The notes under the pieces: generated by a model
Told to the model about the DNA's origin: nothing
Databases searched by the model: none
The model's input: only the letters and a program-made list of their open reading frames with translations
Source of the DNA: an uncultured Clostridium sp.
GTDB lineage: Bacteria > Bacillota > Clostridia > TANB77 > CAG-508
Length of the DNA stretch: 32,851 nucleotides
NCBI GenBank assembly: GCA_948468275.1
Contig: CAOKHI010000022.1
Coordinates: 1-32,851, forward strand
Direction: 5' to 3'
Made by a program: the position numbers and the translations under genes
Shown: positions 5,787 through 32,279 of the stretch, one piece after another
How positions within the stretch are numbered: the first letter of the stretch is position 1
How the letters are laid out: each line of letters starts with the position of its first letter

Positions 5787-5825
5787 AATTACATTACCTT
5801 CCTTTTTAAATGTCTTTATTATTTA

Positions 5826-5853
5826 TATTTTGCTACACTACTTTTTAGTACAA
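5826..5853 (-). promoter_or_regulatory. Probable promoter of the 2079-5786 gene with overlapping dyad
   Basis: On the minus strand TTGTAC (5853-5848) and AAAATA (5831-5826) are 16 bp apart, a weaker match than its relatives. The GTAG(C/T)AAAAT context matches the promoter of the downstream paralogue. A 7-bp inverted repeat (ACTACTT and AAGTAGT, 5837-5843 and 5852-5858) overlaps the -35 and could be an operator. Confidence 0.4.
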
Positions 5854-5900
5854 GTAGTTGTTTTTCTTATATTATTACATATATTATTTTTGCATACTCC

Positions 5901-5977
5901 TTACGGATATTTACCTTTACAATTTTCTTAAAAGAAAAACTCAAAACATATTACAATTATATTACATTTTCGTTACA
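5901..5977 (-). promoter_or_regulatory. TTACGGA box plus three TTACA boxes at exact 11-bp spacing
   Basis: TTACGGA is at 5901-5907. TTACA occurs at 5951, 5962 and 5973, so the three copies fall on the same face of the helix. Direct repeats at 11 bp are typical of OmpR/PhoB-class response regulators, and the B. subtilis PhoP site is built of TTAACA-like repeats. The match is suggestive only. No regulator gene is in the window. Confidence 0.45.
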
Positions 5978-6022
5978 TTTTCAACTAATTATGTAAAATT
6001 TTTAAAATTTGTTTAACCCATA

Positions 6023-6203
6023 GTTACAATTCACAGACAATAGCAGTAAGTAGCGAAGACTAAGTAATATATTTTATTTTGTAATGAAGACCCGACAGCC
6101 CATTGAGGCGGGGGAATACCCGTGAGCTTGGAGGGCGAAATGAAAAAATAAAATATATTACTTAGCCGTAGCGGATTTTATTATATATGCTGTGAACTGT
6201 AAC
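6023..6203 (+). ncRNA. Candidate structured RNA: 181-nt dyad with GC-rich core (possibly raiA-class)
   Basis: The outer stem is GTTACAATTCACAG (6023-6036) with CTGTGAACTGTAAC (6190-6203), 13 of 14 positions complementary. An inner stem of 19 perfect pairs joins 6062-6080 to 6145-6163 region sequence (AAGTAATATATTTTATTTT and its complement). The roughly 65-nt core at 6081-6145 is far more GC-rich than the surroundings and holds local pairings such as GGG-GAATA-CCC, GCC-CATTGA-GGC and CCC/GGG. Unpaired purine-rich strings (GCGAAGAC, GGGCGAAATG, GCCGTAGCGG) flank the stems. It lies between two surface genes with no ORF. The sequence resembles what I remember of the raiA RNA class of Firmicutes, but I cannot confirm this. 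Strand is uncertain; a palindromic mobile element is the main alternative. Confidence 0.5.
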
Positions 6204-6270
6204 AACCCCTAAGATAAAGTACCTAAATACAGTTATTTATTATTTAACCATTTCATTTGACATATAATAC

Positions 6271-6303
6271 AAAAAATAGAAGTGTAGTAGTAATACACTT
6301 CTA
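6271..6303 (-). terminator. Intrinsic terminator after the 6409-12057 gene
   Basis: A perfect 10-bp stem (TAGAAGTGTA, 6277-6286, with TACACTTCTA, 6294-6303) has a 7-nt loop. On the minus strand it is followed by TTTTTTG, as expected for leftward termination about 105 bp after the stop codon. Confidence 0.75.
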
Positions 6304-6408
6304 TCAAGTTCTTGTTATATTTTGAATGCAATTTGTTTTAGTTAAATTTTGAATTTTACTTGTTTTTGATGTGTGTCAAAAAGCCCCGTCCCTATTGACA
6401 CAAAAATT

Positions 6409-9400
6409 TTATATTATATATTTTTTTATTAATATTACGCCAACTGCTGTTATTAGTAGTATGGTTGTTGTTAGTACTATGTATAATCTTGCTTGTCCTG
6501 TTTTTACTGATAGTAGTACAGGGGCATCATCTATGTCATCTTCTCCTGGTTTTTTGTTGTTTGGTGTTGAGTCTATGTCTGGTGTATCACTGTCATTATA
6601 GTGTTGGCTTATTTCTGCTATGTTTACTTTTTGCCCTAGATTGTTTTCACTATTTTCCCATGTTAGTAATATATCTACTGTTGCACTTTCTCCTGGTTTT
6701 AGTAATGTGTTTTGTAGTTGCTGTGTTACTACTTCTTTTTCATTTATCATTGCCCATTTCGGATTGTCTTCTTGTACAAATTTTAATCCATCTGGTATGT
6801 AGTCTTTTACTTCTTTTGCATATCCTTCTATTTGGCCTTCGTTTGTTACTTTTATTTTGTATCCAAATTTTACTGTTACTTTATTTAGTTGTTTTGATTT
6901 TAAATCTACTTTTACTACTGGTTCTGGGTTTTCATCTCCTGTATGGCCTGTATTTGTTGTTATTTGTTTTCCATCTTCTATTATTATTACATTGCTTACC
7001 CATTTTTTTAGTGCAAGATCAAAGTATTTTACTTTTACTTTTTCTATGTCTATGTCATCTTCATCTGGTTTTTCATTTCCTGGTGTTGAGTCTACATCAT
7101 CTACTGGTTTGTCTTCTTTGTCAGAATCTTCTGATATTTCTGCTGTGTTTATTATTATTCTATCTGATGTGTTTGGTTCTATTACTTTAAATGCTACTTT
7201 TACATCTTTGTAGTCTGGATTTTTGTCTGTTATTCCTGCTTTTTTATCAAATGCTTTTATTAGGTTTTGTCCTTCTTCTTTTTCTTGTTCTTTTGATAGA
7301 TAGTCTGTTGTTATTTTTGTAGCTTTTGTTATATCTGTTGTTTTATTTCCTTCTTTATCTATCATTATCCATCTGTAGTTTTGGTTTGTTTCATGCTCTG
7401 GTAAAAATTCTAAGCCTTCTGGTATATTATCTGTTACTTCTTTGGCATAGCCATCTATTTTTCCTTCGTTGTATATTCTTAATGTGTATGTTACTATATC
7501 TTTTTGTTCTACTTGTACAGGTTCTTTTGTATGTGTGTATTTTATGTTTCCTTTTTCATCTAGGCTTAAATTTGGTACTCTGTTGTTTATGTCTAAATTA
7601 TTTACTTTTGTTATGAATTTTCTTAGTGCTAAATCAAAGTATATTAGTTTTACATGTTCTTCATCTATATCATCTTCGTTTGGTTCATTGTTGTCTGGTG
7701 TTGAGTCTATATCATCTACTGGTTTTCCTTCTTTGTCTGAATCTTCAGATATTTCTGCTGTGTTTGTTAGAATTCTATCTGATGTATTTGGCTCTACTAC
7801 TTTAAATGCTACTTTTACATCTTTATAGTCTGGATTATCTTGTGTTATTCCCGCTTCTTTGTTGTATGCTTTTATTAGGTTTTGTCCTTCTTCTTTTTCT
7901 TGCTCTTTTGATAGATAGTCTGTTGTTATTTTTGTAGCTTTTGTTATATCTGTTGTTTTATTTCCTTCTTTATCTAACATTATCCATCTATAGTTTTTAT
8001 TTGTTTCATGTTCTGGTAAAAATTGTAGTCCTTGTGGTAAATTGTCTGTTATTTCTTTTGCATATCCATCTGTATCACCTTCATTAAATATTCGTAATGT
8101 ATATGTTACTATATTATTTGTTTGTACTAATACAGGTTCTTTTGTATGTGTATATTTGATGTTTCCTTTTTCATCTATACTTAAATTTGGTATTCTGTTT
8201 GTTACATCTTTGTTATCTACTTTTGTTATAAATTTCCTTAGTGCTAAATCAAATACTTGTATATTTACTTTTTCAAAATCATCATCATCTTCTTGTCCTG
8301 GTATGTATTTATCACCTTTGTTTATTTCTTCATCTTTATAATTTGGTAATTCTTCATCTGATGGTAATTCTACATTTTTTTCGTTAGAATCTCTATCTGG
8401 TACTTTATTTCCAGCCTCATCTGTATATTCTGTTATATCAGCTATATTTGTTATGTCTTGGTTTGATATTGCTGTATTTTTTATTCTACATTTTACTTTT
8501 ACATCTTTATAGCTTAATGTTGTTCCATCAAATGCTTTTAACATATTATCTATATCTACTTCTTTTGATAGATGATTTGTTTTGATTGTTCTTAATGTAC
8601 TATCATTTTCATCATACATCCACCCATTTGCTATGTTTTGCTCATCTTCTGGTAAGAACTCTAAGTATTCTGGTAAGTGGTCTGTTATTTGGCTTGCATA
8701 TCCATCTATTTGTCCTTCATTATATACTCTTATTGTATATGTAACTATATCCCCTACTCGTACTGTTAGTGGTACTTTTGTGTGATTATATATTGCTGTT
8801 GTACTTGTACCTGCTTGTAGTTTTGATATATCTACTACTGGTTCTCTATTTGTTTTTGGAGGTATGTCATTTACCTCTGATATGAATTTTCTTAATGATA
8901 AGTCAAAATATGCTTTTGGTATTACTATTGGTTCAAAATCGTCATCATCTTGTTGTCCTGGTACGTAATCTCCTTCTTTTCCATTTCCTGTATATGAATT
9001 GTTTTTCTTATCACTTGGAAAGTTTTGTATTTGCGAATCTCTGTCTACATCTTTTTCTATATTACTTTGGGCATCAAAGTATTTTGTTATTTCTGCTATG
9101 TTTACTAGTCGTGTATCTGTTGTACTTGCTTTAGCTGTTATTCTACATCTTATTGTAAATCCTTCATATTCTAAGTTTCCACTACTAAATTTGTTTAATA
9201 CTGTTTTTCCTGTGTTTGTTATTGTTACTGTTGTTGTTCCATTACTATTTTTTGTAGCTACTGCTTTATATTTGTCTTGTGGTGATACTAGTTCTACAAA
9301 CTCTATTCCTGCTGGTAAGTAATCTTTTATCTCGGCTGCATATGCATTTCTTTGGCCTTCATTAAATACATTTATAGTATACTCTATAATAGAACCTGTT

Positions 9401-12057
9401 GTTGTTTCTAAATCATTTTTTGGATGATTATATGTTGCTGTTGTGCTTGTACCTGCTTCTAATTTTGATATATCTACTTGTGGTAGTCTATTTACACTAG
9501 GTGCTTGCCCATTTATTTTTGTTATTGATTTTCTTAATGCTAAATCTAATTCTTTCTTTACTACTACTATTGGTTCAAAATCATCATCATCTTGTTGTCC
9601 TGGTATATAATCTCCTTCTTTTCCGTTTCCTGTGTAAGTATTATTTTTTTTGTTGTCTGGGAAGTTTTCTATTTGTGAATCTCTATCTATATCTTTTTCT
9701 ATATTACTTTGGGCATCAAAATATTTTGTTATTTCTGCTATGTTTACTAATCGTACATTTTCTTTTTCTGGATCTAATGTTATTTTACATCTTATTGTAA
9801 ATGCTTCATGCTCTAGGTTTCCATTACTAAATTTATTTAATACTGTTTTTCCTGTGTTTGTTATTGTTAATGTACTTGTACCATCTTGATGTTTTTCTTC
9901 TGCTACTGTATATTTGTCTTTTGGTGATACTAGTTCTACAAATTCTATTCCTGCTGGTAAGTAATCTTTTATCTCGGCTGCATATGCATTTCTTTGGCCT
10001 TCATTAAATACATTTATAGTATACTCTATAATAGAACCTGTTGTTGTTTCTAAATCATTTTTTGGATGATTATATGTTGCTGTTGTGCTTGTACCTGCTT
10101 CTAATTTTGATATATCTACTTGTGGTAGTCTATTTACACTAGGTGCTTGCCCATTTATTTTTGTTATTGATTTTCTTAATGCTAAATCTAATTCTTTCTT
10201 TACTACTACTATTGGTTCAAAATCATCATCATCTTGTTGTCCTGGTATATAATCTCCTTCTTTTCCGTTTCCTGTGTAAGTATTATTTTTTTTGTTGTCT
10301 GGGAAGTTTTCTATTTGTGAATCTCTATCTATATCTTTTTCTATATTACTTTGGGCATCAAAATATTTTGTTATTTCTGCTATGTTTACTAATCGTACAT
10401 TTTCTTTTTCTGGATCTAATGTTATTTTACATCTTATTGTAAATGCTTCATGCTCTAGGTTTCCATTACTAAATTTATTTAATACTGTTTTTCCTGTGTT
10501 TGTTATTGTTAATGTACTTGTACCATCTTGATGTTTTTCTTCTGTTACTGCATATTTGTCTTTTGGTGATACTAGTTCTACAAATTCTATTCCTGTTGGT
10601 AAATAATCTTTTATCTCGGCTGCATATGCATCTTTTTCTCCTTCGTTACATACATTTATAGTATATTCTATGAATGAACCTGTTGTTGTTTCTAAATCAT
10701 TTTTTGGATGATTATATGTTGCTGTTGTGCTTGTACCTGCTTGTAATTTTGATATATCTACTTGTGGTAGTCTATTTATAGCAGGTGCTTGGCCATTTAT
10801 TTTTGTTATTGATTTTCGTAATGCTAAATCTAGTTCTTTTGGCTCTGGTATTGATACTTGTGCTCCTCCTATTATTGGTTGTGTTAATTTTTCTACTAAT
10901 ACTACTGGTTGTTCTTGTAAATATGTTGCTTCACTTGTTGTATAGTATGTTGCTTCTGTTTTATTAAATGAACCATTTAAGCTAAAATTTACTTGTTTTA
11001 TGTTTGTTGTTATTGGTAATGATATATAGAAATCTTGTCCTATTACATCTTGTATATTTCCGCTTGTTACTACTTGTTTATTTTGATTTAATAACTTGTT
11101 TTCTCCTGTTAGTGTTATTTGTGTTCCATTTTCATCTTTAAATTTTAATTGTGTTATGTCATATTGTCTATCAGGTTGTATTGTTATATTTAAAGGTCCT
11201 ATTATATATCTTTCTCCTTCTTGTACTGCTTTAAAGTTACCTGTTTGTAATGAAATAGGTGATGTTTGGTCTTGTGGTGTATAGTTTGAATTTTCATTTG
11301 CCCCATTTATTAGATACTCATATAAATAACCTGCTTGTTCTTGTCTTATTGTTCCTGTATATACATTTTCAAATGAATCATCATATAAATTTGCTAAAGA
11401 GTCATAATTTTCATCTCTTCCACTATTATTGTTAAAAAATAAAGCAGGTAACTGTGTGCTATTATAATTTGCATCATTTGGATTTGTGAAATACCATATT
11501 ACTAGTTGTTGTACTGCTTCTATATCTGAATCAGTTAATAATGAGCCTTCTTCATATCCATTTTCTCCTATAATTTCTGCATCTTCTAATAATTGTGTTT
11601 TTGTTTGCTCTGCACCTAATGTTCCTGGTAAATACATATGGTCTATAATCCATAATAATTTATTATATGTAGCTTGGCTATTGTTAAATACATTTACAGC
11701 ATTTAGTCTTGTTAATACTTCATCTTTTTGAGTTTTCATATTAAGTTTTGTATTATATATTTTTTTACTTCCTGATAATGATGTGTTATTGTTTGCTGAA
11801 AATCCTAAATCTGCCTTCAAACAATAAAATCTATTTGCGTAATTTGGAGTTGAGCTTTCCATACTAGGATATGATACAATCTTCCATACCTTTTTTGCTT
11901 GACCATTTGGAGATATTTGATACGCTCCTTTGTCTTCTCTTATATTAGTTGCACCTAATATATAGCTTTGATCTGCAGAATATATTTTGACTTGAGCTAT
12001 AGTCAAAATAAAAATTATTGTTATAATTAGTGTTCCTATAAATTTTTTTAGTTTCAT
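6409..12057 (-). CDS. Giant thioester-domain surface adhesin with seven stalk modules
   Basis: An 1882-aa paralogue of the 2079-5786 product, with GGAAGG 5' of the ATG. The signal peptide ends near residue 28. The thioester domain (about 29-265) has Cys79 in FYCLKA and Gln184 in QQLVIWYFTN. A beta domain runs to about 405. Seven modules start near residues 408, 621, 835, 1049, 1270, 1473 and 1680. Modules 1-3 are of a KSITKINGQAP type that the paralogue lacks; modules 4-7 match the paralogue's four modules in order. Modules 1 and 2 share a 601-bp perfect DNA repeat. Modules 1-4 end in an acidic PGQQDDDDFE linker and module 5 on has DIDSTPxN. The C-terminus is SVKTGQ (1850), a hydrophobic helix and KKYII, with no LPXTG. 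The role is probably covalent surface attachment displayed on a long stalk; ligand unknown. Confidence 0.9.
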   Translation of the reverse strand: MKLKKFIGTLIITIIFILTIAQVKIYSADQSYILGATNIREDKGAYQISPNGQAKKVWKIVSYPSMESSTPNYANRFYCLKADLGFSANNNTSLSGSKKIYNTKLNMKTQKDEVLTRLNAVNVFNNSQATYNKLLWIIDHMYLPGTLGAEQTKTQLLEDAEIIGENGYEEGSLLTDSDIEAVQQLVIWYFTNPNDANYNSTQLPALFFNNNSGRDENYDSLANLYDDSFENVYTGTIRQEQAGYLYEYLINGANENSNYTPQDQTSPISLQTGNFKAVQEGERYIIGPLNITIQPDRQYDITQLKFKDENGTQITLTGENKLLNQNKQVVTSGNIQDVIGQDFYISLPITTNIKQVNFSLNGSFNKTEATYYTTSEATYLQEQPVVLVEKLTQPIIGGAQVSIPEPKELDLALRKSITKINGQAPAINRLPQVDISKLQAGTSTTATYNHPKNDLETTTGSFIEYTINVCNEGEKDAYAAEIKDYLPTGIEFVELVSPKDKYAVTEEKHQDGTSTLTITNTGKTVLNKFSNGNLEHEAFTIRCKITLDPEKENVRLVNIAEITKYFDAQSNIEKDIDRDSQIENFPDNKKNNTYTGNGKEGDYIPGQQDDDDFEPIVVVKKELDLALRKSITKINGQAPSVNRLPQVDISKLEAGTSTTATYNHPKNDLETTTGSIIEYTINVFNEGQRNAYAAEIKDYLPAGIEFVELVSPKDKYTVAEEKHQDGTSTLTITNTGKTVLNKFSNGNLEHEAFTIRCKITLDPEKENVRLVNIAEITKYFDAQSNIEKDIDRDSQIENFPDNKKNNTYTGNGKEGDYIPGQQDDDDFEPIVVVKKELDLALRKSITKINGQAPSVNRLPQVDISKLEAGTSTTATYNHPKNDLETTTGSIIEYTINVFNEGQRNAYAAEIKDYLPAGIEFVELVSPQDKYKAVATKNSNGTTTVTITNTGKTVLNKFSSGNLEYEGFTIRCRITAKASTTDTRLVNIAEITKYFDAQSNIEKDVDRDSQIQNFPSDKKNNSYTGNGKEGDYVPGQQDDDDFEPIVIPKAYFDLSLRKFISEVNDIPPKTNREPVVDISKLQAGTSTTAIYNHTKVPLTVRVGDIVTYTIRVYNEGQIDGYASQITDHLPEYLEFLPEDEQNIANGWMYDENDSTLRTIKTNHLSKEVDIDNMLKAFDGTTLSYKDVKVKCRIKNTAISNQDITNIADITEYTDEAGNKVPDRDSNEKNVELPSDEELPNYKDEEINKGDKYIPGQEDDDDFEKVNIQVFDLALRKFITKVDNKDVTNRIPNLSIDEKGNIKYTHTKEPVLVQTNNIVTYTLRIFNEGDTDGYAKEITDNLPQGLQFLPEHETNKNYRWIMLDKEGNKTTDITKATKITTDYLSKEQEKEEGQNLIKAYNKEAGITQDNPDYKDVKVAFKVVEPNTSDRILTNTAEISEDSDKEGKPVDDIDSTPDNNEPNEDDIDEEHVKLIYFDLALRKFITKVNNLDINNRVPNLSLDEKGNIKYTHTKEPVQVEQKDIVTYTLRIYNEGKIDGYAKEVTDNIPEGLEFLPEHETNQNYRWIMIDKEGNKTTDITKATKITTDYLSKEQEKEEGQNLIKAFDKKAGITDKNPDYKDVKVAFKVIEPNTSDRIIINTAEISEDSDKEDKPVDDVDSTPGNEKPDEDDIDIEKVKVKYFDLALKKWVSNVIIIEDGKQITTNTGHTGDENPEPVVKVDLKSKQLNKVTVKFGYKIKVTNEGQIEGYAKEVKDYIPDGLKFVQEDNPKWAMINEKEVVTQQLQNTLLKPGESATVDILLTWENSENNLGQKVNIAEISQHYNDSDTPDIDSTPNNKKPGEDDIDDAPVLLSVKTGQARLYIVLTTTILLITAVGVILIKKYII
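9302..9902. repeat. 601-bp perfect direct repeat, copy 1
   Basis: By direct comparison this is identical, base for base, to 9944-10544. The repeat period of 642 bp is 214 codons, so gain or loss of a unit keeps the frame. Bounding mismatches are C/T at 9301/9943 and C/T at 9903/10545. A third, diverged unit lies on the 9301 side. Confidence 0.95.
9944..10544. repeat. 601-bp perfect direct repeat, copy 2
   Basis: Second copy of the 601-bp repeat at 9302-9902, inside the same reading frame. It spans the junction of stalk modules 1 and 2. Perfect identity including synonymous sites indicates a recent tandem duplication or gene conversion. Confidence 0.95.
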
Positions 12058-19464: not shown

Positions 19465-19609
19465 TTTTTCTTTACTTTTTCTATTTTTTGTGTTTTAATA
19501 ACATCATTAAATATTCTAAATATTTATTTTCTTAAATATTTTTCCAATAAATATTTTATTGACAAGTTGTCAAATTTATTTTATAATTAAAGAAAGAAGT
19601 GGTTTTATG
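19465..19609. repeat. Rpn upstream region, copy 1 of a direct duplication
   Basis: From TTTTTCTTTACTTTT at 19465 through the promoter, RBS and first codons, this stretch matches 32669-32816 with scattered substitutions and small indels. Both copies keep an AAATATTTA / TAAATATTT hairpin (19518-19526 and 19533-19541) and the palindromic promoter. Confidence 0.85.
19559..19587 (+). promoter_or_regulatory. Consensus sigma-A promoter with palindromic -35 operator (Rpn gene)
   Basis: TTGACA (19559) and TATAAT (19582) are both perfect and 17 bp apart. TTGACAAGTTGTCAA (19559-19573) is a 7-bp perfect inverted repeat around one central base and covers the -35, a classic repressor-site position. It is conserved exactly in the second copy at 32765. 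Confidence 0.8.
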
Positions 19610-20641
19610 ATAGTTTTTTCCTATCAGGATTATTTAGCTTGTAAGAAAATTATTGGTTCTTATTGGTATTTAAACGAAAATAGTTCAGATTATTATTTAG
19701 GTACAAATAGTGCTGTTCACAATGTTCATGATGCTATGTATAGAGCTTTACTTAATGATAAAAATGAATTATGTGCATTTTTAGAAAAATTTATTAATTA
19801 TAACATTTATAGTAATGAAATTTGTAAATACAATACTTCATTTATTACTGATAATTTCAATTCTAGATACACTGATGTTATTTATAAATTTAAAAATGAA
19901 CCCATATATATTCTTATTGAACATCAATCATATATTGATAACAGTATTTCTTATAGAATTTTTGATTATTATACTGAAATCTTGAGAGATACTATTGATA
20001 GGAATAGTATTAATAAAAAAGATTATAAATTTCCCTGTGTTATTCCTATTGTGCTGTATACTGGTAATAAAAATTGGAATTTAGTTCCTAATATAAAAGC
20101 AAAACAGTATGATGCAAGAACTATTATGGGGAAAATATTCATAAATTATTATTTTATAAATATTAATAATTATTCAATATATGAACTATTAAAAGTAAAT
20201 TCTTATATTGGATATGCTATGGCAATAGATAAATGTAAATGTGCTGATGAACTTTATGATGTTATTAATAAATTATCTACTATATTAGATAATAATGAAC
20301 ATATAAGTTACACAAGACGTATTATTAAATATATTTTAAATGTACATTTTGATGATGAAACAACAGCGTTGCTGTTAAATAAATTTAATGAAAGGAATGA
20401 TGTTACTATGAAATATGTTTGGGATTATATTAAAGAAGATCAAGAAAGAATTGCAAAAAAATTAACTATGAATGGCAAGCGTGAAGGTAAACGTGAGGGT
20501 AAACGTGAGGGTAAGTTAGAAGCGAGATTAGATTTTGTTAGAACTATGCTTAATAATGGCGAAACTATTGAAAAAATTATGCTTTATAGTAAAGTTAGTA
20601 AATCAGAAATTGAAAAACTTCGTGAAGAAATGGCTATTTAA
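19607..20641 (+). CDS. Rpn-family PD-(D/E)xK nuclease / putative transposase
   Basis: A 344-aa member of the Rpn / PDDEXK nuclease family (often annotated as putative transposase), whose E. coli relatives are DNA endonucleases that raise RecA-independent recombination. HDAMYRALL at residues 41-49 and the core YTDVIYKF...YILIEHQS give Asp90, Glu105 and Gln107, the D...ExQ form usual in this family. SYRIFDYYTEIL and PIVLYTG are also family strings. The C-terminus has three GKRE tetrapeptide repeats and a Glu/Lys-rich helix. The frame is open back to TTG 19559, but that codon is the promoter -35, so ATG 19607 after AAAGAAGTGG is taken. It is monocistronic. A second copy begins at 32814. The gene looks intact; activity is not known. 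Confidence 0.9.
   Translation: MIVFSYQDYLACKKIIGSYWYLNENSSDYYLGTNSAVHNVHDAMYRALLNDKNELCAFLEKFINYNIYSNEICKYNTSFITDNFNSRYTDVIYKFKNEPIYILIEHQSYIDNSISYRIFDYYTEILRDTIDRNSINKKDYKFPCVIPIVLYTGNKNWNLVPNIKAKQYDARTIMGKIFINYYFININNYSIYELLKVNSYIGYAMAIDKCKCADELYDVINKLSTILDNNEHISYTRRIIKYILNVHFDDETTALLLNKFNERNDVTMKYVWDYIKEDQERIAKKLTMNGKREGKREGKREGKLEARLDFVRTMLNNGETIEKIMLYSKVSKSEIEKLREEMAI
20474..20512 (+). repeat. Twelve-bp in-frame tandem repeat encoding GKRE
   Basis: Three units encode Gly-Lys-Arg-Glu. Units 2 and 3 (20486-20497 and 20498-20509) are identical and unit 1 differs at synonymous positions. Such charged repeats are common at the end of Rpn-family proteins and can change copy number by slippage. 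Confidence 0.8.
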
Positions 20642-20937: not shown

Positions 20938-23900
20938 TTATTTTTTGTCTATAACTTTTCTTTTTATTAAGTAAACTCCTGCTGCTAGTATTATTGTTAT
21001 TGTAAATCCTAATGTATAGTAGATGTATTTTGATCCTGTTGGTGGTGTTACTATTACCTCGCCATCTGGTGGTGTTTCTTTGCTTGTTTTGTCTGCTGTT
21101 CTACTTGAACCTACTGTATCGTGTTCTTGTGGTTGTTTTTCTAGGCTTTGGTTTCCTGGTATTGCTCCATGGTCATATCTACCAACTGAATTGTCTATTT
21201 CTACTATTTCAGCCATGTTTGAATATGCTAAGTCGTCTGCTGAACTTTCTGATGATAATACTTTTGTTAGTTTTAATGTTGCTGTTTCTTCTTCTCCTGG
21301 TTTTAATGCTTTTGTAAGTGGATTCTTAGCTGTTGCTTGTAATGTTGTTGTTTGTGTGCTTATGTCTAGTTGTTTTCTTTCTTCATTTGCTATAGCTCTA
21401 TTGTTAACTAATGTTGATTTTTTATCATTTTGCATATCATCTAGTTTTACAACTTCCCATAATGCATTTCCATCTTTATCTTTGTTGTCTGCTATTTCAA
21501 AGTTTAGATTATTTGCAACATAGTTTATTATTCTTTTAGCTCTTGTTGTTGCTTCTGCTTCTCCATTGTTTGTTATAGTAAATTTATATGTTATTTCTAA
21601 TTTTGCTCCACTTATTAATTCATTATCCATAATTATATTGATTAATTGTTTTTTATCATATCCTTCTATAGGTCTTCCACTTACCATGCCTTTATTTGCA
21701 TTATCTCCTTTTTTCCATTGTAAGTTGTATACACCTTTTTCAGTATCAAATAATACTGTTACTCCATCTGCTGCTGTTACTTTTATGTGTTGTACATCTT
21801 GGTCTAATACTAGTTCTGATCTTGGTCTTTCCACTATACCAAAGTCTACACCTGTTATATTATGTTCATATTTTTGTCCTTCTTTATAGTTTCCTTTTAT
21901 TGTTGTTGTTGCATATTCTACTTCTACTGGTATTTGTGGTGTATATGCATATCTGTATGTTCTTCTTTCTAATTCAGATGCTAGTGTAGCATGTAAGTCT
22001 TTTGTCATTGTTGGATAATATCCTGTTTCGTTTTCTGTATCATATTTGTAATAATCATCATTTTGGTAAGAGTTAAATACTTCTGCTTTATGGTTTGTTA
22101 TTTCTCTTCCATATTCATTTTTTGAATAGTCTATTACTTGTTGTTTTCTTGCTGCATCATCTTGTGCATCTGATTTTTTATCGTCTTGTGTGTACCAATA
22201 GAATGTTTGACCATTGCCTTCATTGTTATATTTATATATTTCAGTTTTGTTTGGTACATCTATATTTTGTTGTTCTTCTCCATTTCTTCCTTTATTAATT
22301 GCAGTAGAACTATCTTTTAATGACTGATCTGTATTATATTCTGATTTTGCAAGTGTTTTTCCTTGTTTTACTGTCATTATTGTAGATTGGAAGTCTTGTC
22401 CATTATAAGATTTTACATTGCTTCCTTTTTTACCAAATGCTGTTGTTGTATTCATTGCTGTTGTATCATCTGAACCATATATAAATCTTACTGTATAATC
22501 TCCTGGTACAAATCCTATAAATCCATACCAACCGTCTGAATTAGTTCTTGTTTGTGCTCTTACAACCATGTTATTATTTTTAATTTCTACTAATTGTACT
22601 ATTACATCTTTTACTTTTGTATCATCATTTCCTAGATCTCCATTTCCATTTCTTGATTCTTCTGTCTTTAATTCTCCTGTTGTTTTATCTTCAAACACAG
22701 TTCCTGCAAGTGTTCTAGATTCTCTAACTTTATAGATAAATACTGGCGCTCTTGATGTATCATCTTCATAAACATTTTTTAAGCCTGGATAATTTTTTAT
22801 GTTGTTATCAGTAAATTCTCCTATGTTAGATATGTCTATATTTCCTGGATTTGAGTCTATATCTATTAGTCCTGGTGTTGAAGTTCCTTGTAGTGCATTA
22901 TATGTTTTGTATCCATTTATTTCTGCTAAGTTTGATGTTTCAAAGTTTTGCTTATTCAATAGTTTATCGCATAATGTATTTCCTGCATCTTTATTATTTG
23001 GATCTTTTCCTACTAGTTTTAATGTTACAAAAATGTATTGTCGTTTATTATTGTTATGTAATCTTGTTTCTGTATTTGGTCTTAAATACATTGTTTTATA
23101 TGTTCCATTTTTGCTTTTATACATATTTGCTCCATTGTTTGCATACATTGAGTTTTCGCTATATGTTACATCTCCTTGTTTTACTCCATTTTCATCTCCT
23201 ACATATGCTCCTGCGTATTCGTAGTTTGGATCATAATAGTCTACTATTTCTGTAATAGCTGCTGTTGTTCCAGATTGATTTTCTACCGCTATTTTATATG
23301 TCAAGTATACTTGTAATCTGTTTTCATTTCCAATTCCTTGTAGTGTTTCATAGTTATTATTTATTGTATAGCTATTATTACCACCTATAATACCACTTTT
23401 ATTTCCATATACAGAGCTTTGACCATTAGCAACTTCTTCGGCTCTCATTTCTATTTCATATTTGTCTGATTCTATTTCTCTTGTTTGTTGATTTGTTATT
23501 TTTTCTTCTATTTCTTTATTTGCATTATATTGTTCTTCTGCATTAACAGCTAAATATTTGTTTCTAAGTCCATTTAAATAGTCACTTTCACTTACACCAA
23601 CACTAAATGGTTTATTACTACCTTTTCTAGAGTCATATTCATATATTTCAGATTTTCCATTTATTTTTACTTCTGCTTTGAATGCATCTTTGTATAAAGC
23701 AAGATCTACTGTTGGTCTATTTTTTATACCTAAGTTTACATTTGTTTGATCATATTGTCTACTATATATTGGTGAATAATCTTTTCCTGCTATTCTTTGA
23801 TTAGAATCGTCTATAACAAATTCATCTGGTATAGCATATGTTTTTACTGTATATGCATTTATTCTACAATCAGCTACAAATTGTATTTTACTTCTTATTT

Positions 23901-26900
23901 CATTTTCACCTTTATGCTGTTCTAATACCTTTAGATATGCAGCTTTTTCGTCCCCATCTGTAGTTGTAGCCATTTTTGATACTTCTCTAAATAAGTCTGC
24001 TATTTCTTCTTGTAAATATACTTTATTGTATATTGTTTGTCCATTTTCAAAGTCTGTTGTTTTATAGTTTGTTGGATATGAACCTATTTCTGCAAATGTA
24101 TTGTTAAAGTTTGCTCTGTTGTTATTCATATACTCTGCTGGATTTTTATTTGATCCGCCTTGATAATCTTCTGTTGCCTTTGATGATACAACTTCTGAGC
24201 CTACATTATATTTAACATTGGTGTATAACATTCCATTATATGTAAATTTAACATAATAGTCTTTTTGAGCATCTATATTTGTAAATTCATAATATCCATT
24301 TGAATCTGTTAATACTGGATTAGCAAGTTTTGTTGTTGATTCTACTGTACTTGTTGTTTTTCCACAACCTGGTTCATAGTAATCTATATCTTTTCCTTCT
24401 TCTTTATTACATGTAAATATGTATTTTACTTCTTCATTACATGTAAGTTTCCAGTAATCTGGTTCAAGATTTTTTTCTTGGCAATCTAATATTTCATGTG
24501 ATAATATGCTATAACAGCTTTTCTTATCGTGTTTACAATCTGTTTCTTCACATTTTAATGGATAACAACCATCTTTCCAATTATGTTTTTCGTGTTCTTC
24601 CTTTCCACATATTTCTGCTGCTTTCATATCAAAACAAGTTTTTCTAGTATGCTCATGTTCTTTTTGACATTTTAATGGATAACATCCTATTTTATAACTA
24701 TGCTCATGTATTTCTTTTCCACATTTTGTAATTTGCTCTACTTTAAAGCATCTTTCCTCATGTTCATGCTTGCCACATATTAGTTGTCCATCTGGGTTAT
24801 AACATTCTGGTTCATGCATATGGTAAACTGGTTCTTCAAAGCATGTTCCTGGTCCTCCTTCTTCAGCTGAACCTATATGTGTGTGTGTAGCTTGATTATA
24901 GCAAGAACTTTGTACTGTTTCACTACCTGAATGTTTATGATAAACTGCTTTTGTATAACATCCTCCATATTGGCTACTATTTCCTATATGTTGATGCATT
25001 ACATTTTGTTCTAAAGCTACTTTATTATTGTTTACTTCATATAATGTAACTTCTATACCTTCTAGTCCTTCTCCATCATCATACTGATTGTTGCCTTCGT
25101 TTACTTTTCCTTGGTCTTTATCTAAGAATACTTTACCACTTATATTCATAGTAATATCTATTACTGGTGGTGGCGTTTTCTTTGCATTGTATATTGTAAT
25201 TTTTGCAATGCTATTACCTTTTGAATCTGTTTTTAAATTCGTAGTACTTGATCCAGAACAACTTGTAATTACACCATTATTTAATGTTAACTTCATTGTT
25301 GATGTTTCATTTGTTATTACATAATTTGTTGGTGCTTTTGTTTCTTTGAATATTACATCTATAGTTCCTGTAAATTCACTTAAGTCTAATCCTCTTTCTT
25401 TTATTTCTTGTGCTGTTATTCTAGCTAAACCATTAGTATCTGTTTTTCTACTAAATTTTAATTCTTTTCCATTAATTTTTAATGTTACTTCAAATTCTGC
25501 ACCAAATAATGCTTGTGTATTGTCTGAAGATTCCTTATATATGTATATAACTGGTTGTTTTGGTATTATTGTTGGTGGAATTTCATCATTATATACTGTA
25601 ATTTTAGCAACACTCTTTCCTCCCATGTCATTATCTATCTCTGTTTTGCTAGAACCTGTACAATCGGTAATTAAACCTTTATTTAAAACTATTCTCATTG
25701 TTGATGTTTCATTTTTAATATGATGTCCTTCTGGTGCTTTTGTTTCTTTAATTGTTGCATCTATAGTTCCTGTAAATGTACCTATATCTATACCATATTG
25801 CTCTATATCTTCTGTTGATATTTTAGCTAAACCTTGATCATCTGTTTTTTTACCTAAAGTTATGGTTTTATTTTTGCTTCCAGATGAATCTTGTCCATTT
25901 ATTGCAAGTGTAATATTAAATTCTGCACCATACAATGGTTCATTATGTGTAGAACATTCTTTATATATAGCTATCATTGGTATTTTTTTCTCTTCTGGTT
26001 CTTCTGGTATATCTTTACCAATTGTTAGTCTAGCTGTTCCTGTTTCTTCTTCTACATCCATACCATAAGCCAATAATTTTTGTGCTTCACCTAAATCTAG
26101 TTTTCTCAAATTAAATGCATATGTTGTTGTTTGATTTACTATACCTCCATGTGCTGTTTTATGTGGTATTGTACACCCATCATCTTTTGTTTTACTATCA
26201 ATTTGCCAATACCATTGATATATTCTTCCTTCATATTCATATAATGTACCTGTATATTTTTTAAAGTATTTGAATCCCATATCTAGGCTAATAGATTTTG
26301 AAGGTTTAGTTGCCTTAAATTTTACATAGAATTTTTCTTCTTTTTGTGGATATTTATAATCTCTAGCTGATATTGATTTTCCTTTTTCATCTTGAATTTC
26401 TACTAGCTCTAAATCTTCTCCTTTTTCATTTTTTACTAATAACTCACTCATTTCTCCAAAGTTAATTCTTTCTCCATTTGGTTTTACATAGTAATTATCC
26501 AAATACGATACTGCAAATGGTCCTGCTGTATATGTATCATTTTTTTTGTCTACTGATACTTTTACTTTACTTAAATCAGTAACATCTTTTGGAGTAAATT
26601 CTTTTCCTGCATTTTTTTCTTTTTCTTCATAATATTTTTTATATTCTACCGCTTCATTGTATATATCTTTTTCAGTATCTCTCAGTGAATCTATTCCTAA
26701 ATGTCTACCTTCATTAATACCTAATACCCACATAATTCTTTGTGCTACATCTATATCATCTGTGTGCTTTAATACATATAATACATCTTGATATTTATTT
26801 ACATCTTTTTGTTCTTTTATAGTAAATTCACTTTGGTATTTATATTTAACAGGATCTGCCTTTTTAGGCCAACCTGTATTTTTTAATCTTAATATTTCTC

Positions 26901-27219
26901 TTGAAGGTAAGTTTTCTTTTCCATCTCCCTCTGTATCCTTAAATTCCGTTCTATCCCACTCTCCTGCATCTTCAAGACATCTCCAACATATATAATCTGT
27001 ACCTTCCTTCTCTCCTTCATCGTATGTAGTTTCCTTCAAATGTCCACCTTTTTCGATACACATAACCCACATACCTTCTACTATAGTAGTTGCAAATTCT
27101 CCTTTTCCATCTGAGTGCCAGTTGAAGCTTTGGGGTACCGCCTTTACCATTGTTGTGGATAGTGCTATTATTGTAAATATTATTAATCCTATTATACCTT
27201 TTATACTTTTATTTCTCAT
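20938..27219 (-). CDS. Giant (2093-aa) thioester/SpaA/SdrD-type surface protein with Cys/His-rich insertion
   Basis: The signal peptide covers about residues 1-27. A divergent thioester domain follows: Cys54 (WVMCIEKG) and Gln160 (AQRIMWVLG) fit the Cys and Gln positions of such domains. Two SpaA/prealbumin-like domains (about 410-548 and 554-690) repeat AEFxxTLxINGxxxxxxxK and ETKAP. An SdrD-B-like domain starts near 690 and is interrupted at 741-952 by a region with 19 Cys and 18 His, then resumes at LTDSNGYYEFTNI. D2-like modules begin near 1172 (VDLALYK) and 1800, with a second, uninterrupted SdrD-B domain near 1502. The tail is TPPTG (about 2058), a hydrophobic helix and KRKVIDKK. GGAGG precedes the ATG, and the gene starts 20 bp after the stop of the 1679-aa gene, so it is second in that operon. 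It is probably an anchored adhesin; the binding partner is unknown. Confidence 0.9.
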   Translation of the reverse strand: MRNKSIKGIIGLIIFTIIALSTTMVKAVPQSFNWHSDGKGEFATTIVEGMWVMCIEKGGHLKETTYDEGEKEGTDYICWRCLEDAGEWDRTEFKDTEGDGKENLPSREILRLKNTGWPKKADPVKYKYQSEFTIKEQKDVNKYQDVLYVLKHTDDIDVAQRIMWVLGINEGRHLGIDSLRDTEKDIYNEAVEYKKYYEEKEKNAGKEFTPKDVTDLSKVKVSVDKKNDTYTAGPFAVSYLDNYYVKPNGERINFGEMSELLVKNEKGEDLELVEIQDEKGKSISARDYKYPQKEEKFYVKFKATKPSKSISLDMGFKYFKKYTGTLYEYEGRIYQWYWQIDSKTKDDGCTIPHKTAHGGIVNQTTTYAFNLRKLDLGEAQKLLAYGMDVEEETGTARLTIGKDIPEEPEEKKIPMIAIYKECSTHNEPLYGAEFNITLAINGQDSSGSKNKTITLGKKTDDQGLAKISTEDIEQYGIDIGTFTGTIDATIKETKAPEGHHIKNETSTMRIVLNKGLITDCTGSSKTEIDNDMGGKSVAKITVYNDEIPPTIIPKQPVIYIYKESSDNTQALFGAEFEVTLKINGKELKFSRKTDTNGLARITAQEIKERGLDLSEFTGTIDVIFKETKAPTNYVITNETSTMKLTLNNGVITSCSGSSTTNLKTDSKGNSIAKITIYNAKKTPPPVIDITMNISGKVFLDKDQGKVNEGNNQYDDGEGLEGIEVTLYEVNNNKVALEQNVMHQHIGNSSQYGGCYTKAVYHKHSGSETVQSSCYNQATHTHIGSAEEGGPGTCFEEPVYHMHEPECYNPDGQLICGKHEHEERCFKVEQITKCGKEIHEHSYKIGCYPLKCQKEHEHTRKTCFDMKAAEICGKEEHEKHNWKDGCYPLKCEETDCKHDKKSCYSILSHEILDCQEKNLEPDYWKLTCNEEVKYIFTCNKEEGKDIDYYEPGCGKTTSTVESTTKLANPVLTDSNGYYEFTNIDAQKDYYVKFTYNGMLYTNVKYNVGSEVVSSKATEDYQGGSNKNPAEYMNNNRANFNNTFAEIGSYPTNYKTTDFENGQTIYNKVYLQEEIADLFREVSKMATTTDGDEKAAYLKVLEQHKGENEIRSKIQFVADCRINAYTVKTYAIPDEFVIDDSNQRIAGKDYSPIYSRQYDQTNVNLGIKNRPTVDLALYKDAFKAEVKINGKSEIYEYDSRKGSNKPFSVGVSESDYLNGLRNKYLAVNAEEQYNANKEIEEKITNQQTREIESDKYEIEMRAEEVANGQSSVYGNKSGIIGGNNSYTINNNYETLQGIGNENRLQVYLTYKIAVENQSGTTAAITEIVDYYDPNYEYAGAYVGDENGVKQGDVTYSENSMYANNGANMYKSKNGTYKTMYLRPNTETRLHNNNKRQYIFVTLKLVGKDPNNKDAGNTLCDKLLNKQNFETSNLAEINGYKTYNALQGTSTPGLIDIDSNPGNIDISNIGEFTDNNIKNYPGLKNVYEDDTSRAPVFIYKVRESRTLAGTVFEDKTTGELKTEESRNGNGDLGNDDTKVKDVIVQLVEIKNNNMVVRAQTRTNSDGWYGFIGFVPGDYTVRFIYGSDDTTAMNTTTAFGKKGSNVKSYNGQDFQSTIMTVKQGKTLAKSEYNTDQSLKDSSTAINKGRNGEEQQNIDVPNKTEIYKYNNEGNGQTFYWYTQDDKKSDAQDDAARKQQVIDYSKNEYGREITNHKAEVFNSYQNDDYYKYDTENETGYYPTMTKDLHATLASELERRTYRYAYTPQIPVEVEYATTTIKGNYKEGQKYEHNITGVDFGIVERPRSELVLDQDVQHIKVTAADGVTVLFDTEKGVYNLQWKKGDNANKGMVSGRPIEGYDKKQLINIIMDNELISGAKLEITYKFTITNNGEAEATTRAKRIINYVANNLNFEIADNKDKDGNALWEVVKLDDMQNDKKSTLVNNRAIANEERKQLDISTQTTTLQATAKNPLTKALKPGEEETATLKLTKVLSSESSADDLAYSNMAEIVEIDNSVGRYDHGAIPGNQSLEKQPQEHDTVGSSRTADKTSKETPPDGEVIVTPPTGSKYIYYTLGFTITIILAAGVYLIKRKVIDKK
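24364..24999 (-). other. Cys/His-rich insertion (residues 741-952) inside the SdrD-B domain
   Basis: This segment begins at MHQH and ends at GCGK. It opens with units pairing HxH and a following CY or CF (YHKH...SCY, THTH...TCF, YHMH...ECY). Two longer units of about 37 residues follow, each with CGKExHE, GCYPLKC and KxC. The second SdrD-B domain of the same protein has a short turn at this place, so the region is an insertion into a loop. Metal binding or disulfide knotting are the likely roles. Confidence 0.75.
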
Positions 27220-27239
27220 AAAATTTAACCTCCTTTCCC

Positions 27240-30200
27240 CTATATTCTTCTTAAAACTTTTTTATTTATAAGATATATTCCAACTCCTAATATACCTATA
27301 CTAATTAATGTTATTACTATGTAAACATATACTTCACCAGTTTTTACACCTATTATTGCATCTGCTCTGCTCATGTCGTCTTCATTTTGTACACTGTTTG
27401 CTGGTGTTGAGTCTATATCTTGTATTCCTAAATCGTTATAAGCTTCATATATTTCGGCATTATTATTTATTACACCTGTGTTGTTCTGTGTCATTTTCTT
27501 TGTTAGTACTAGTGTTAATTCTTTTGTTTCTCCTGGTTGTAATAAAGTATTTGCTAAACTTGCATTGTATACATTTCCATTTTCTGCTGCATACCAATCT
27601 TTGTTTATTTCTGATGTGAATTTTACATCTTGTGGTATGTAATCTACTATTTTTTTAACATATCCTGCAAGAGCTCCTTCATTTGTTACTTTTATTTTGT
27701 ATTCTATTACTAATGTTGTATCATTAATTGTTTTTGGATCTAAATCTAGTTTCGCAAGTTGTGTTTCTTTGTAGTCATGAACTTTGGTGCCTTTTGAATT
27801 GTTTACTGTTATTTTTGTTATAAACTTGTCTAGTTTTAAATCGAATTTTGGATTTTCTATTAATCCTATATCTATGTTATATATATTTTCAAATAATGAA
27901 ATATTGTCAGAAACCGCTCCTGTTATTTCTTCTCCATCTAAGCTCATTTTCATTGTTATTGCATCTGAATTTATGCTATCATTTATTCCTTCTGCTTTGT
28001 ATTTTGTAAGATCATATTTCTTTGTATCATACACAAATACTACTATATATTTTCCTCTTTCTATGTTTTCAAATATATAACTTCCATTTTTATCTGTTGT
28101 TGTAGTTATAGCTTTTCTAGCTTCATCTTTAACAGTTTCTCCTGTTTCTGCATTAATTAACATTAGTTTTATATTTTCTAATTTTGGTTCTTTTGCATCT
28201 CTTTTTCCATCTTTGTTTTCATCTATCCATGCTACACCTGAAATATTGTATCTTCTTGGTTGTACTGTTCCATCTGGACCTTCAATGTCTTTATTTGTTG
28301 GTTGTATTTCATGTGTAGAAGAATATTTTTTATAAAATCCTATAGTTTTACATTCTACTAAAATTTCATTTGTTGCACTTATAGCATTTTCACCTGTAAC
28401 TTCATTAGCTTTTGCTATAACTGTTATCTCTATTGTTTTTCCTGGTTCTAGGTTTAGTGTTACTACTGATGTGTCTTTACCTGTTTTTATTTCTGGTGTT
28501 GCTTCACCTTCTATTGTATATTTTGTTTTTTGGTATGAAAGTTGTTTTGGTATACTATCTGTTACAACAATGTTTTCTATAACTTCTGTTCCTGTATTTT
28601 TTATTTTTACATAATATTCGATTGTATCTTCATCTGTTAGTTTTCCTTCTGGTTTATTGTCACTTACTGATACTGATATGCTTTGTACTATAACTCTATT
28701 TATTATCTCATTTGTTGAAAATATTTCATCTGTTCCATCACATGTTACTTCCATTTCATGTTTTATATCTTTTTTCATTAATCCAGTTGGTAGTCTATCT
28801 ACAGTTACTTCTAATACAACTCTTATTACTTCTTCTGCTTCTAATTCTCCTATATCCCATGTTACTGCATTAACGTCTTCTTCAAAATCTACACCTTCTG
28901 TTATTCTTCCACCTTTTAATATATATGCTGTTTTATATGTTGTTCCACCTGGTATTATACTTGATGCTACTACATTTTCTCTTTCTTTTTGGCTTACATT
29001 AGTAATTGTAGTAGTATATCTTATTGTTTCTCCTTCTTTTACCATTCCATTTAATATAGTAGGATACGAACTCATCTCTACACTCAAAAATCCCTCTTTA
29101 ACCTTATTCCTTATACTATTTGTCTGTATAGCCTTCTCCAATCCATCTGCTGTAATTGTTCCATATGCTTCTGCATAAACTTCCTCAACTGCAAGATTTC
29201 CATCTTCATCTTCTATTTCCTCATCAGATAAAGTCTTAACTACAACATTATATTCAACTGTTTTAGTTTCTCCTACTTTTAAAGTTTCTATAGTTTGAGA
29301 AAACTCTCTTTTATAATAATCTTCTACATATTCATCATACCAATAATCTCCACCTGGAACAAATTCTGTATAATTAGTTCCATAAGGTACTTTTCCTTTT
29401 ACAATAACATTATTTACATCAGACTTTCCAACATTTGTTACACTTATTATATATGTAATACGTGTTCCTTCACTTACTTCGTCTCCATCTTCTAAGTAAT
29501 CTCCATTTTGAATTACCGCTTCTATTTCGGCTTCTAGTTCTGGTCCTGCTCCTGTTGTTAGTCCTACTGTTGCAGATTTTGCTGTGTCTTTTATTGTTTG
29601 AGATTTTGTTACATTATCAAAATCTACTACATAGTTTGCATATGCTGATTGATTGTGTTGTAGATTTTCTGGTATGTCTACATTATATGATACTGTTATA
29701 TTATCTCCTGTGTTCATTTCATTGTTTGATAATACTATTAAGTATGATTTTACTTTGCTATAATCTGTAACTTCTTTTGTCCAGCCATTTGAACTTTGGT
29801 TTAGGTCTTTTGTTGCACTTTCATTAGTACTATAATATATTGTAACTTTTGATGCATCTACTCCAGATACTGTTATTGCATCTTTTAGTGTTGCTTGTAA
29901 GTTAGATCCTAGCTCTTCATTAGAAACTGCATCTTTACTTTTTTCTCCTAGTACTCTTCCTAATATGCTAACATTTTTTGCTACATTATTATAGTTATTT
30001 ATTACATTCATTGTAACTGTTGCAACTTTTGCTTCTGTTTTTGTTTCTAGTTTTCCTGTACTGTTTTGTCCACTTATTGATGTTACTGTTTCTCCTTTTG
30101 CATTGTAGTTTGCTACTGAATTTGTTGTTACCATTCCTACTGGTGCTACTGAATTTAATTTTGTTTCTACATATGCACTTGTAGGTACACTTCTTAGTTT

Positions 30201-32279
30201 TTGTGTTGTTTCGTATGATGTTGCATTTTCGTTTGTAACATATACTTTCATTACATCTTCTTTTGTTGGTGTTAATTGTTTTAATGTAATATCTGATGAA
30301 ATTACTATGTTTGCTCCCTTAGATACTTCATCTGTATTGTATTTTGTGTCTTCTCCTTCTATTATTACTTTAATTACAGTATTGCCTGATTGATTTTTGT
30401 ACAATTCATAGTTTTTAATTTTTAATTCTTCATCAAATAGTAAATTTATGTCTTTTATGTCTATATTTTCTACATATGTTGGTAATACTACTTCAATTAC
30501 TGGGTTTTTATATAAATCGCAATCAATATTGTTTGTTTTTAATATAACTCTAATTTGTACATTTTCATTTTTTACTACTGTTGATAAATTTTCATTACTT
30601 ACGCTTGCTTCTATTCTTGTTACAGGGTCTATTAATGTAATATCTGATTGTGTGTTTATGTTTGCTATTTCATTTTGTACAAAGTTTGCTTTTACATTTG
30701 TATTTGTTTGTAATGTTCTATAACTTTGTAATTGTGCTTTTTGATAATTTTTTGAACCTTGTAATGCTTTTTTGTGGTATATTTGTATTTTTCCTTCTTG
30801 TATTGGTTTTGTTGTTTGAATTATTATTTTATCTGTTTTTCCTTCATAATTATATGTATAATTTCCGTTTTCATCTTCAGTTGTTTCTTTATTAAATGTA
30901 GTAAGTATATTTCCATCTTTATCTTTTATTATTATTTGTCCATCTTCTCCAAGCATTTTTTGGAATAATTCTTTTTTAATAGATGTTTCTTTATAATATG
31001 AATTATTTGCTATATCTTTTATTCCTTCTGCATTTACAAATTGATCTGTTTCATTATTTATTACTAATTCATCTACAACTTCACTATATCCTATATCTAT
31101 TTTTGTTTCTATATTATATATAGTTTCTTTTTCTGAATTTGTATATAGGTATCCTTTGCTAAGTTCTTTTGTAGAAGTGTTTTTAACATCTACTATTTCT
31201 CCTACTTTATCTTTTAATTCAACTTTTCCTGCTACTTGTGCTTCTTGTATTGTTTCTACATTATTATATGCTTTTATGGTTGCTTTAACAGTTTGTTCTG
31301 TTTGTACTGCTTCTTGTGTATCTAGCTTATATATATATGTTATTACATATTCATCTATAGCATTTTTTTGCCATGATACTATATTGTCTTGTGCTTCATT
31401 TTTTACTGTTATGTTTAGTGTTCCTGCCTCAGCATTATAATTCCAATTATCATTATTAAACTGTGTTACTTCTTTTCCATTTGTAGCTTTTGTACTATTT
31501 GCTATAACACTTACTTTTTCTGGTTTTTGATTATTTATTTGTGGAACTATTACATCTAGTGTTGTTTGTTCTATTGGTAAATTATTATTTTCTAATCCTG
31601 CTTTTACCACTGTTTGTAAAATTATTCCTTTTTCATCTTTTATATTGTAAGGAATATATCTTTGTATTCCTTGTTCTAAAGATACTTTTATTTGTCCATT
31701 CCATTCTACTTTTACTTTTATTGTTTTTGAAATGTTAATTGTTTTTCCTTCATCATTTACAAATGAACCTTTTAATTGTACTGCGTTTTCTTTAATAAAA
31801 TTGCTTACATCAAATTTATCGTCTTTGTTTGCAACTATTGGTAGTTCAATTATTGCTTGTGTTCCTTGATTTATTTGTTTTAAAGCTATTTCATTTTTAT
31901 CTAAATCTATTTTTTGAATTAATTCTAAGGATTCATCACTATTTAATAATTTAAAATTTGAATAACTTCCTTCCTTATCTCCAAATATTTTTATTAACGC
32001 ATCTTTTAAATATCCTCTTTTTACATTTACAGATATATACAGCTTTGTATCTTGCTTGTTTATATCTTGTTTAATGCTATGTATTTTGGTTTTGTTTTCA
32101 TTCACAAAATAAGCATCGAATTCTACATTTTCATTGTTTGTAGTAATTCCTTGCTTTTCTAAATTTTCTGACATAGCATATGTATTGTTTGCATATACTC
32201 CCAAGAGTATAATGTTTGCCAAAGTTAGTGTTATTACTAACATTGTTGCAACAACCTTGCTAAATATTTTTTTATTCAT
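27240..32279 (-). CDS. Large (1679-aa) DUF11/SdrD-type surface protein, first gene of operon
   Basis: The signal peptide ends near residue 35 (ANNTYA), and TAGGAGG precedes the ATG. No thioester Cys-Gln pair was found. The first half is a long series of beta-rich segments without a firm family match. At least three DUF11-like repeats follow (ITYIISVTNVGKSDV, IRYTTTITNVSQKE, IEYYVKIKNTGTEV), each leading to a P.G.Y or IP.xLSYQ-like strand. An SdrD-B-like domain (about 1345-1430) has GVAWIDENKDGKRD, a calcium-site-like acidic loop, and DKNGSYIFENI. The last module (about 1479-1630) is D2-like with FDLKLDKFITKI, NNNAEI and DIDSTPAN. The C-terminus is GVKTGE (1644), a hydrophobic helix and NKKVLRRI. 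It lies directly upstream of the 2093-aa gene (20-bp gap), suggesting the two act together, perhaps as partners in one surface structure. Confidence 0.9.
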   Translation of the reverse strand: MNKKIFSKVVATMLVITLTLANIILLGVYANNTYAMSENLEKQGITTNNENVEFDAYFVNENKTKIHSIKQDINKQDTKLYISVNVKRGYLKDALIKIFGDKEGSYSNFKLLNSDESLELIQKIDLDKNEIALKQINQGTQAIIELPIVANKDDKFDVSNFIKENAVQLKGSFVNDEGKTINISKTIKVKVEWNGQIKVSLEQGIQRYIPYNIKDEKGIILQTVVKAGLENNNLPIEQTTLDVIVPQINNQKPEKVSVIANSTKATNGKEVTQFNNDNWNYNAEAGTLNITVKNEAQDNIVSWQKNAIDEYVITYIYKLDTQEAVQTEQTVKATIKAYNNVETIQEAQVAGKVELKDKVGEIVDVKNTSTKELSKGYLYTNSEKETIYNIETKIDIGYSEVVDELVINNETDQFVNAEGIKDIANNSYYKETSIKKELFQKMLGEDGQIIIKDKDGNILTTFNKETTEDENGNYTYNYEGKTDKIIIQTTKPIQEGKIQIYHKKALQGSKNYQKAQLQSYRTLQTNTNVKANFVQNEIANINTQSDITLIDPVTRIEASVSNENLSTVVKNENVQIRVILKTNNIDCDLYKNPVIEVVLPTYVENIDIKDINLLFDEELKIKNYELYKNQSGNTVIKVIIEGEDTKYNTDEVSKGANIVISSDITLKQLTPTKEDVMKVYVTNENATSYETTQKLRSVPTSAYVETKLNSVAPVGMVTTNSVANYNAKGETVTSISGQNSTGKLETKTEAKVATVTMNVINNYNNVAKNVSILGRVLGEKSKDAVSNEELGSNLQATLKDAITVSGVDASKVTIYYSTNESATKDLNQSSNGWTKEVTDYSKVKSYLIVLSNNEMNTGDNITVSYNVDIPENLQHNQSAYANYVVDFDNVTKSQTIKDTAKSATVGLTTGAGPELEAEIEAVIQNGDYLEDGDEVSEGTRITYIISVTNVGKSDVNNVIVKGKVPYGTNYTEFVPGGDYWYDEYVEDYYKREFSQTIETLKVGETKTVEYNVVVKTLSDEEIEDEDGNLAVEEVYAEAYGTITADGLEKAIQTNSIRNKVKEGFLSVEMSSYPTILNGMVKEGETIRYTTTITNVSQKERENVVASSIIPGGTTYKTAYILKGGRITEGVDFEEDVNAVTWDIGELEAEEVIRVVLEVTVDRLPTGLMKKDIKHEMEVTCDGTDEIFSTNEIINRVIVQSISVSVSDNKPEGKLTDEDTIEYYVKIKNTGTEVIENIVVTDSIPKQLSYQKTKYTIEGEATPEIKTGKDTSVVTLNLEPGKTIEITVIAKANEVTGENAISATNEILVECKTIGFYKKYSSTHEIQPTNKDIEGPDGTVQPRRYNISGVAWIDENKDGKRDAKEPKLENIKLMLINAETGETVKDEARKAITTTTDKNGSYIFENIERGKYIVVFVYDTKKYDLTKYKAEGINDSINSDAITMKMSLDGEEITGAVSDNISLFENIYNIDIGLIENPKFDLKLDKFITKITVNNSKGTKVHDYKETQLAKLDLDPKTINDTTLVIEYKIKVTNEGALAGYVKKIVDYIPQDVKFTSEINKDWYAAENGNVYNASLANTLLQPGETKELTLVLTKKMTQNNTGVINNNAEIYEAYNDLGIQDIDSTPANSVQNEDDMSRADAIIGVKTGEVYVYIVITLISIGILGVGIYLINKKVLRRI

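Follow-up and report, generated by a model that had tools for sequence, protein, structure and literature searches.

The analysed window is a DNA stretch of 32,851 nucleotides from an uncultured Clostridium sp. (GTDB CAG-508; contig CAOKHI010000022.1 of assembly GCA_948468275.1), in which the gene of a 2093-aa surface protein carries a block rich in cysteine and histidine (Table 1). The large surface proteins of the window (2079-12057 and 20938-32279, both on the minus strand) end in xxTG-like motifs with hydrophobic stretches and basic tails and not in LPXTG, and 10 sortase matches were obtained in the genome. Between SpoIIR and the surface gene an open frame on the plus strand (19559-20641) encodes a YhgA-like putative transposase (PF04754). 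In the congener loci that were read, the insert-bearing gene adjoins one whose product resembles the 1679-aa DUF11/SdrD_B protein in size and start. In congener L027 it has beside it the genes of SpoIIE, of a PBP-type transpeptidase and of a protein similar to this DUF11/SdrD_B one, and they do not reveal the function of the module. The SpoIIE gene lies downstream where the window has the YhgA-like frame, and similar frames are present in other congener loci.

Table 1. Positions in the window of the insert-bearing surface gene, its parts and the adjacent gene; residues are those of the 2093-aa protein.
Feature	Position	Strand	Details
Surface protein ORF, 2093 aa	20938..27219	-	signal peptide, SpaA domains, two SdrD_B-like domains, C-terminal transmembrane segment
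SdrD_B-like domain (interrupted), first part, residues 689-740	25000..25155	-	
Cys/His-rich insert, residues 741-952	24364..24999	-	
N array, HxH...C units 1-4	24802..24996	-	H742/H744/C754, H761/H763/C773, H779/H781/C793, H800/H802/C806
Variable middle/tip, residues 807-912	24484..24801	-	extra short HxH-x3..5-C-x4..8-C units including two GCYPLKC units
C array	24364..24483	-	C913, C927, C937, C952, with YxxxC and IDYYEPGC strands between
SdrD_B-like domain (interrupted), second part, residues 962-1002	24214..24336	-	
Second SdrD_B domain, uninterrupted, residues 1523-1618	22366..22653	-	
PPTG, hydrophobic stretch and basic tail at C-terminus, degenerate sorting-signal-like	20941..21048	-	from sequence
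Adjacent DUF11/SdrD_B surface protein, 1679 aa	27240..32279	-	

The preliminary description reported 19 Cys and 18 His in residues 741-952, arranged in HxH...C(Y/F) units and two GCYPLKC units, and the recount agrees with these numbers and finds both kinds of unit in the insert. The whole protein contains 28 Cys and 35 His, so that 9 Cys and 17 His fall to the remaining 1881 residues, and the enrichment of the insert is far above chance (hypergeometric P about 2e-13 for Cys and 6e-10 for His). It had also been stated that Cys is scarce in the other wall-anchored proteins of the window, which holds for three predicted surface proteins (3, 6, and 3 Cys per 1235, 1882, and 1679 aa) but not for the open frame at 1-1800 (minus strand), a second Cys/His-rich surface protein, with 16 Cys and 16 His among the 600 residues read. 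The N-terminal 200 residues of this second protein show H...CxxC...CGxC-type repeats with a zinc-ribbon-like look, a pattern unrelated to the insert. Another small Cys/His patch lies in the N-terminal region of the 2093-aa protein, at residues about 340-360, and is richer in congeners L027 (TCSKHIYCHTCRDGIYRCHG) and L031.

The Cys/His block can be described as a removable insert that a given loop may carry or lack, since four congeners (L136, L143, L146, and L149) and one paralogue (L150, a second copy in genome G004) have the same domain uninterrupted at the insertion point. These empty-site copies go directly from “VxLYxxxN” to “LTDxNGxYxF” with nothing between. Thus the earlier observation of an interrupted domain with a continuous second copy in the same protein is confirmed and extended beyond that protein, and the specialised nature of the block is borne out by the empty sites together with homologues that keep the Cys and His. 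The flanks are two parts of an SdrD_B/CarboxypepD_reg-like domain: when joined they match SdrD_B (PF17210) modestly (26.9 bits, E 5.7e-6, against the curated cut-off of 29.7), the 3' flank alone gives 23.3 bits and the 5' flank alone no match, while the whole protein passes the cut-off at 36.6 bits through its second SdrD_B copy. SdrD_B is in this way the host at the insertion point, whereas the insert itself is not SdrD_B. A further weak SdrD_B match was noted elsewhere in the genome, in a 1313-aa open frame (L004; G000 contig C24, 5141-5305).

Orthologues, sought with the region after the insert as query, were found in 19 of the 21 genomes of the genus, and most of them carry the insert (13 congeners by tblastn, and L135). 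Its length within the genus ranges from about 140 to 320 residues. The N side in most members reads HxH-x9-C-x6-HxH-x9-C-x5-HxH-x9(11)-C-x5/6-HxH-x3-C and the C-side end C-x13-C-x9-C-x13/14-C; these outer blocks are conserved in most members, and the extra short units are confined to the middle, which varies among congeners in length and content. Less regular members are L031, L038, L039, and L135. The Cys and His counts of the genus members (8/8, 10/10, 8/8, 17/20, 15/17, 10/11, and 19/18) are correlated with r = 0.97, more tightly than either residue is with length (0.83 and 0.79).

The module is an unnamed family that is not restricted to the genus of the window. No match in the insert was found in Pfam, G5 family included, and a NCBIfam scan gave no covering family; six relatives searched against Pfam had only weak chance-level matches (best E 0.012), none of the zinc-finger or zinc-ribbon families being significant. 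PHROGs gave nothing significant. Against PDB sequences phmmer found no match and the profile reached a best E of 0.83, and the literature on the motif strings yielded nothing relevant. Similar strings had been placed by the preliminary description in poorly characterised clostridial surface and phage-tail proteins. The first group is real, as a genome scan with the alignment recovered relatives outside the genus both in Lachnospiraceae, where the cultured Kineothrix alysoides has one (L082), and elsewhere in the family to which the window belongs. The second drew no homologue by tblastn in 50,697 phage records or in the scans of viral contigs, and tblastn of plasmids found no copy. A single viral pattern match (L126), judged from its DNA alone, which gives no sign of the repeat, is taken to be a chance one.

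The module occurs in four settings: it directly follows a signal peptide, forms the C-terminal end of pilin-like proteins, is enclosed by an ALK/LTK glycine-rich domain in L062, or occupies the SdrD_B loop. The pilin-like hosts L047, L049, and L073, from the same family and another genus, possess a GVTLIALxIT leader with the module at the end, and L047 has a weak N_methyl match; the module may therefore also decorate pilus-like structures. It is uncommon, being present in 5 of 348 Kineothrix-family genomes at E <= 1e-10. Exact codon-pattern scans, each of which returned a single match in 398 genomes from the phylum, are given little weight, because they miss the window's own copy and are thus too strict to gauge the spread.

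A shared plan is recognised throughout the family, in which n units HxH-x9-C-Y with a period of 19 (N units; short form HxH-x3-C) are followed by a variable tip and then by m units C-G-K...Y-x-L-x with a period of 14 (C units). Both periods are strict in regular members, and 93 of 94 in-register N-unit positions are intact. The N units were scored by pattern and the C units with a matrix built from the other clades alone (leave-clade-out), in place of a PSSM trained on three arrays, which misses edge units; the PSSM threshold for C units was the analyst's choice. In 23 proteins from outside the genus n and m were equal in 16 and differed by one in all others (r = 0.99, Spearman 0.98, both inflated by kinship among the proteins), the shortfalls being mostly a single edge C unit under the threshold; a cruder counting rule outside the genus resulted in Spearman 0.93 and slope 0.98. 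Close relatives change both numbers jointly (7/7, 10/10, and 13/13), and the variation is seen between species, with one genome searched per species. The rule holds across tips of the C18-C20-C12-CxxC type (L082 and relatives), shorter tips (L074 and L078), and a nearly Cys-free tip (L062). The minimal congeners L029 and L035 possess 4 N and 4 C units, while L039, with two full N units and four C Cys, violates the rule, L038 and L135 are irregular, and the middle of the window insert makes its units more difficult to count. Despite the inflated statistics, it is hard to account for the joint changes unless the two arrays pair physically.

Since an N unit holds two His and one Cys and a C unit one Cys, each pair amounts to one CCHH set. 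Equal numbers of units would also fit one disulfide per rung, in which the Cys of each N unit is bonded to that of its partner C unit to give a stapled rod, with HxH structural or binding something else, and the extracellular location of the host protein suits such bonds. Disulfides, however, need neither an HxH conserved as strongly as the Cys nor a C:H ratio near 1:1, and the absence of DsbA and VKOR families from the genus (controls were positive; the search covered these two oxidase families and this genus) counts against them as well. This explanation is therefore regarded as unlikely, and the disulfide “knot” of the preliminary description is not favoured, the parts behaving as a ladder of paired repeats. 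The proposal of a metal module is partly borne out, with indirect support from the 2H+2C content of each pair, the equality of n and m, and the missing DsbA and VKOR, and zinc would be the most probable metal judging from the ligand set.

In a rival reading the arrays would serve mainly to capture zinc (or copper or iron) at the surface, and the rod shape would be incidental. In its favour, counting ligands, the 19 Cys and 18 His of the insert suffice for at most about nine CCHH sets; but a store does not need strict periods of 19 and 14 or paired arrays, and the tip varies independently, being nearly Cys-free in L062 and L064, which makes a scavenger an improbable main role. Rieske centres are likewise held by two His and two Cys, and the hosts are anaerobic, so that sets containing iron or [2Fe-2S] clusters could be imagined to conduct or sense electrons along the cell surface. 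Signal peptides and pilin-like leaders, however, point to export of an unfolded chain, and unfolded chains do not carry clusters; the Rieske order CxH...CxxH is missing from the units, and no cluster-binding family was matched; a redox rod is considered very improbable.

The structural evidence concerns the order in which the arrays would pair. The AF2 model of the window segment (14 rows) is confident in the outer N and C parts, with mean pLDDT of 81-92 over model residues 41-110 (the N array), and falls below 50 over residues 128-229 in the middle; its outer strand lengths match in nested order. For a relative with n = 5 (13 rows, pLDDT 89.5) the whole domain is locally confident, and N-side strands (2-5, 19-24, 38-43, 57-62, and 76-80) and C-side strands (167-172, 181-186, 195-200, 206-211, and 220-224) surround long tip strands. 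Because the pTM values are low (0.39, and 0.44 for the n = 5 relative), the overall shape of the models is not fixed; five N and five C predicted strands are the number needed by a two-stranded nested ladder, with which they are consistent. In Foldseek comparison with PDB the best E values of the two models, 6.3 and 0.49, were not significant. Covariation of gap lengths gave P 0.006 for nested and P 0.07 for parallel order, a signal probably driven by the genus members with 13-9-13 spacing, and charge covariation between the arrays was weak and only suggestive (P 0.07); in these tests m was set equal to n, and they bear on the order and not on the equality. Parallel pairing is thus disfavoured by the length covariation and by growth in the middle, both of which favour nesting.

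According to these data the best reading, to which a probability of about 0.6 is given, is a zinc-laddered stalk of variable length with a swappable tip, and not a chance patch of Cys and His. The family, the removable insertion, the periods of the units, and the equality of their numbers are shown by the data, whereas the nesting, the identity of the metal, and the role as a stalk are inferred. The two repeat arrays would zip together, the first N unit pairing with the last C unit and so on inward, into a two-stranded beta ladder, with a single CCHH site for metal, most probably zinc, pinning every rung; to each site the N unit would contribute two His and one Cys and the C unit one Cys. The two ends of the module would then sit together at the base, which allows it to be plugged into a surface loop, and the variable middle would lie at the far tip; addition of one N and one C unit would lengthen the rod by one rung. 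In the window insert the putative rungs are H742/H744/C754 with C952, H761/H763/C773 with C937, H779/H781/C793 with C927, and H800/H802/C806 with either C913 or C815. The tip would be a string of self-contained HxH-C-C hairpins, which could bring the total to the nine or so sets of the ligand count in a middle that has no AF2 support. As to function, a stalk is favoured, stiffened by metal and adjustable in length, which would hold its tip out from the cell surface. The reasons are a length that changes with n, the proposed meeting of the two ends at the base, the variability of the middle, and hosts that are surface or pilin-like proteins. Any role of the tip in adhesion or sensing is guesswork.

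If this is true, it would add a new way of building surface stalks in bacteria, with length set by two arrays kept equal, and the stability of the stalk would depend on metal: the metal stoichiometry would equal n, and chelation would soften the rod. Also, a module missed by family libraries would gain a name, in hosts that are gut Lachnospiraceae including a cultured species. There is an even chance, in our estimate, that the architecture is an undescribed one, namely, a nested two-array zipper rod with CCHH rungs split between distant repeats, whose length changes only by joint addition of N and C units and which serves as a plug-in cassette of unrelated surface and pilin-like proteins in gut Clostridia.

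Several known systems are comparable in part. In periscope proteins and fibrillar adhesin stalks the number of tandem repeats sets the projection distance of the tip and varies between relatives, and each stalk consists of one array of complete folded domains, for instance SHIRT (PMC8201768, PMC9210967), whereas here two separate arrays, matched in number and paired, with Cys/His rungs, are proposed. The staphylococcal Aap/SasG G5-E (B-repeat) rods are surface repeat rods with zinc-dependent behaviour, and the B-repeat regions of Aap make homophilic contacts with each other through zinc (PMC9802226); the metal proposed here would instead lie inside each rung. Tandem C2H2 zinc fingers are also repeated CCHH sets, and the short units (HxH-x3-C-x8-C) are similar to a minimal CCHH hairpin that is complete in itself; however, the ligand order and spacing of the module differ, its units lie outside the cell, and the long units would take their fourth ligand from a distant repeat.
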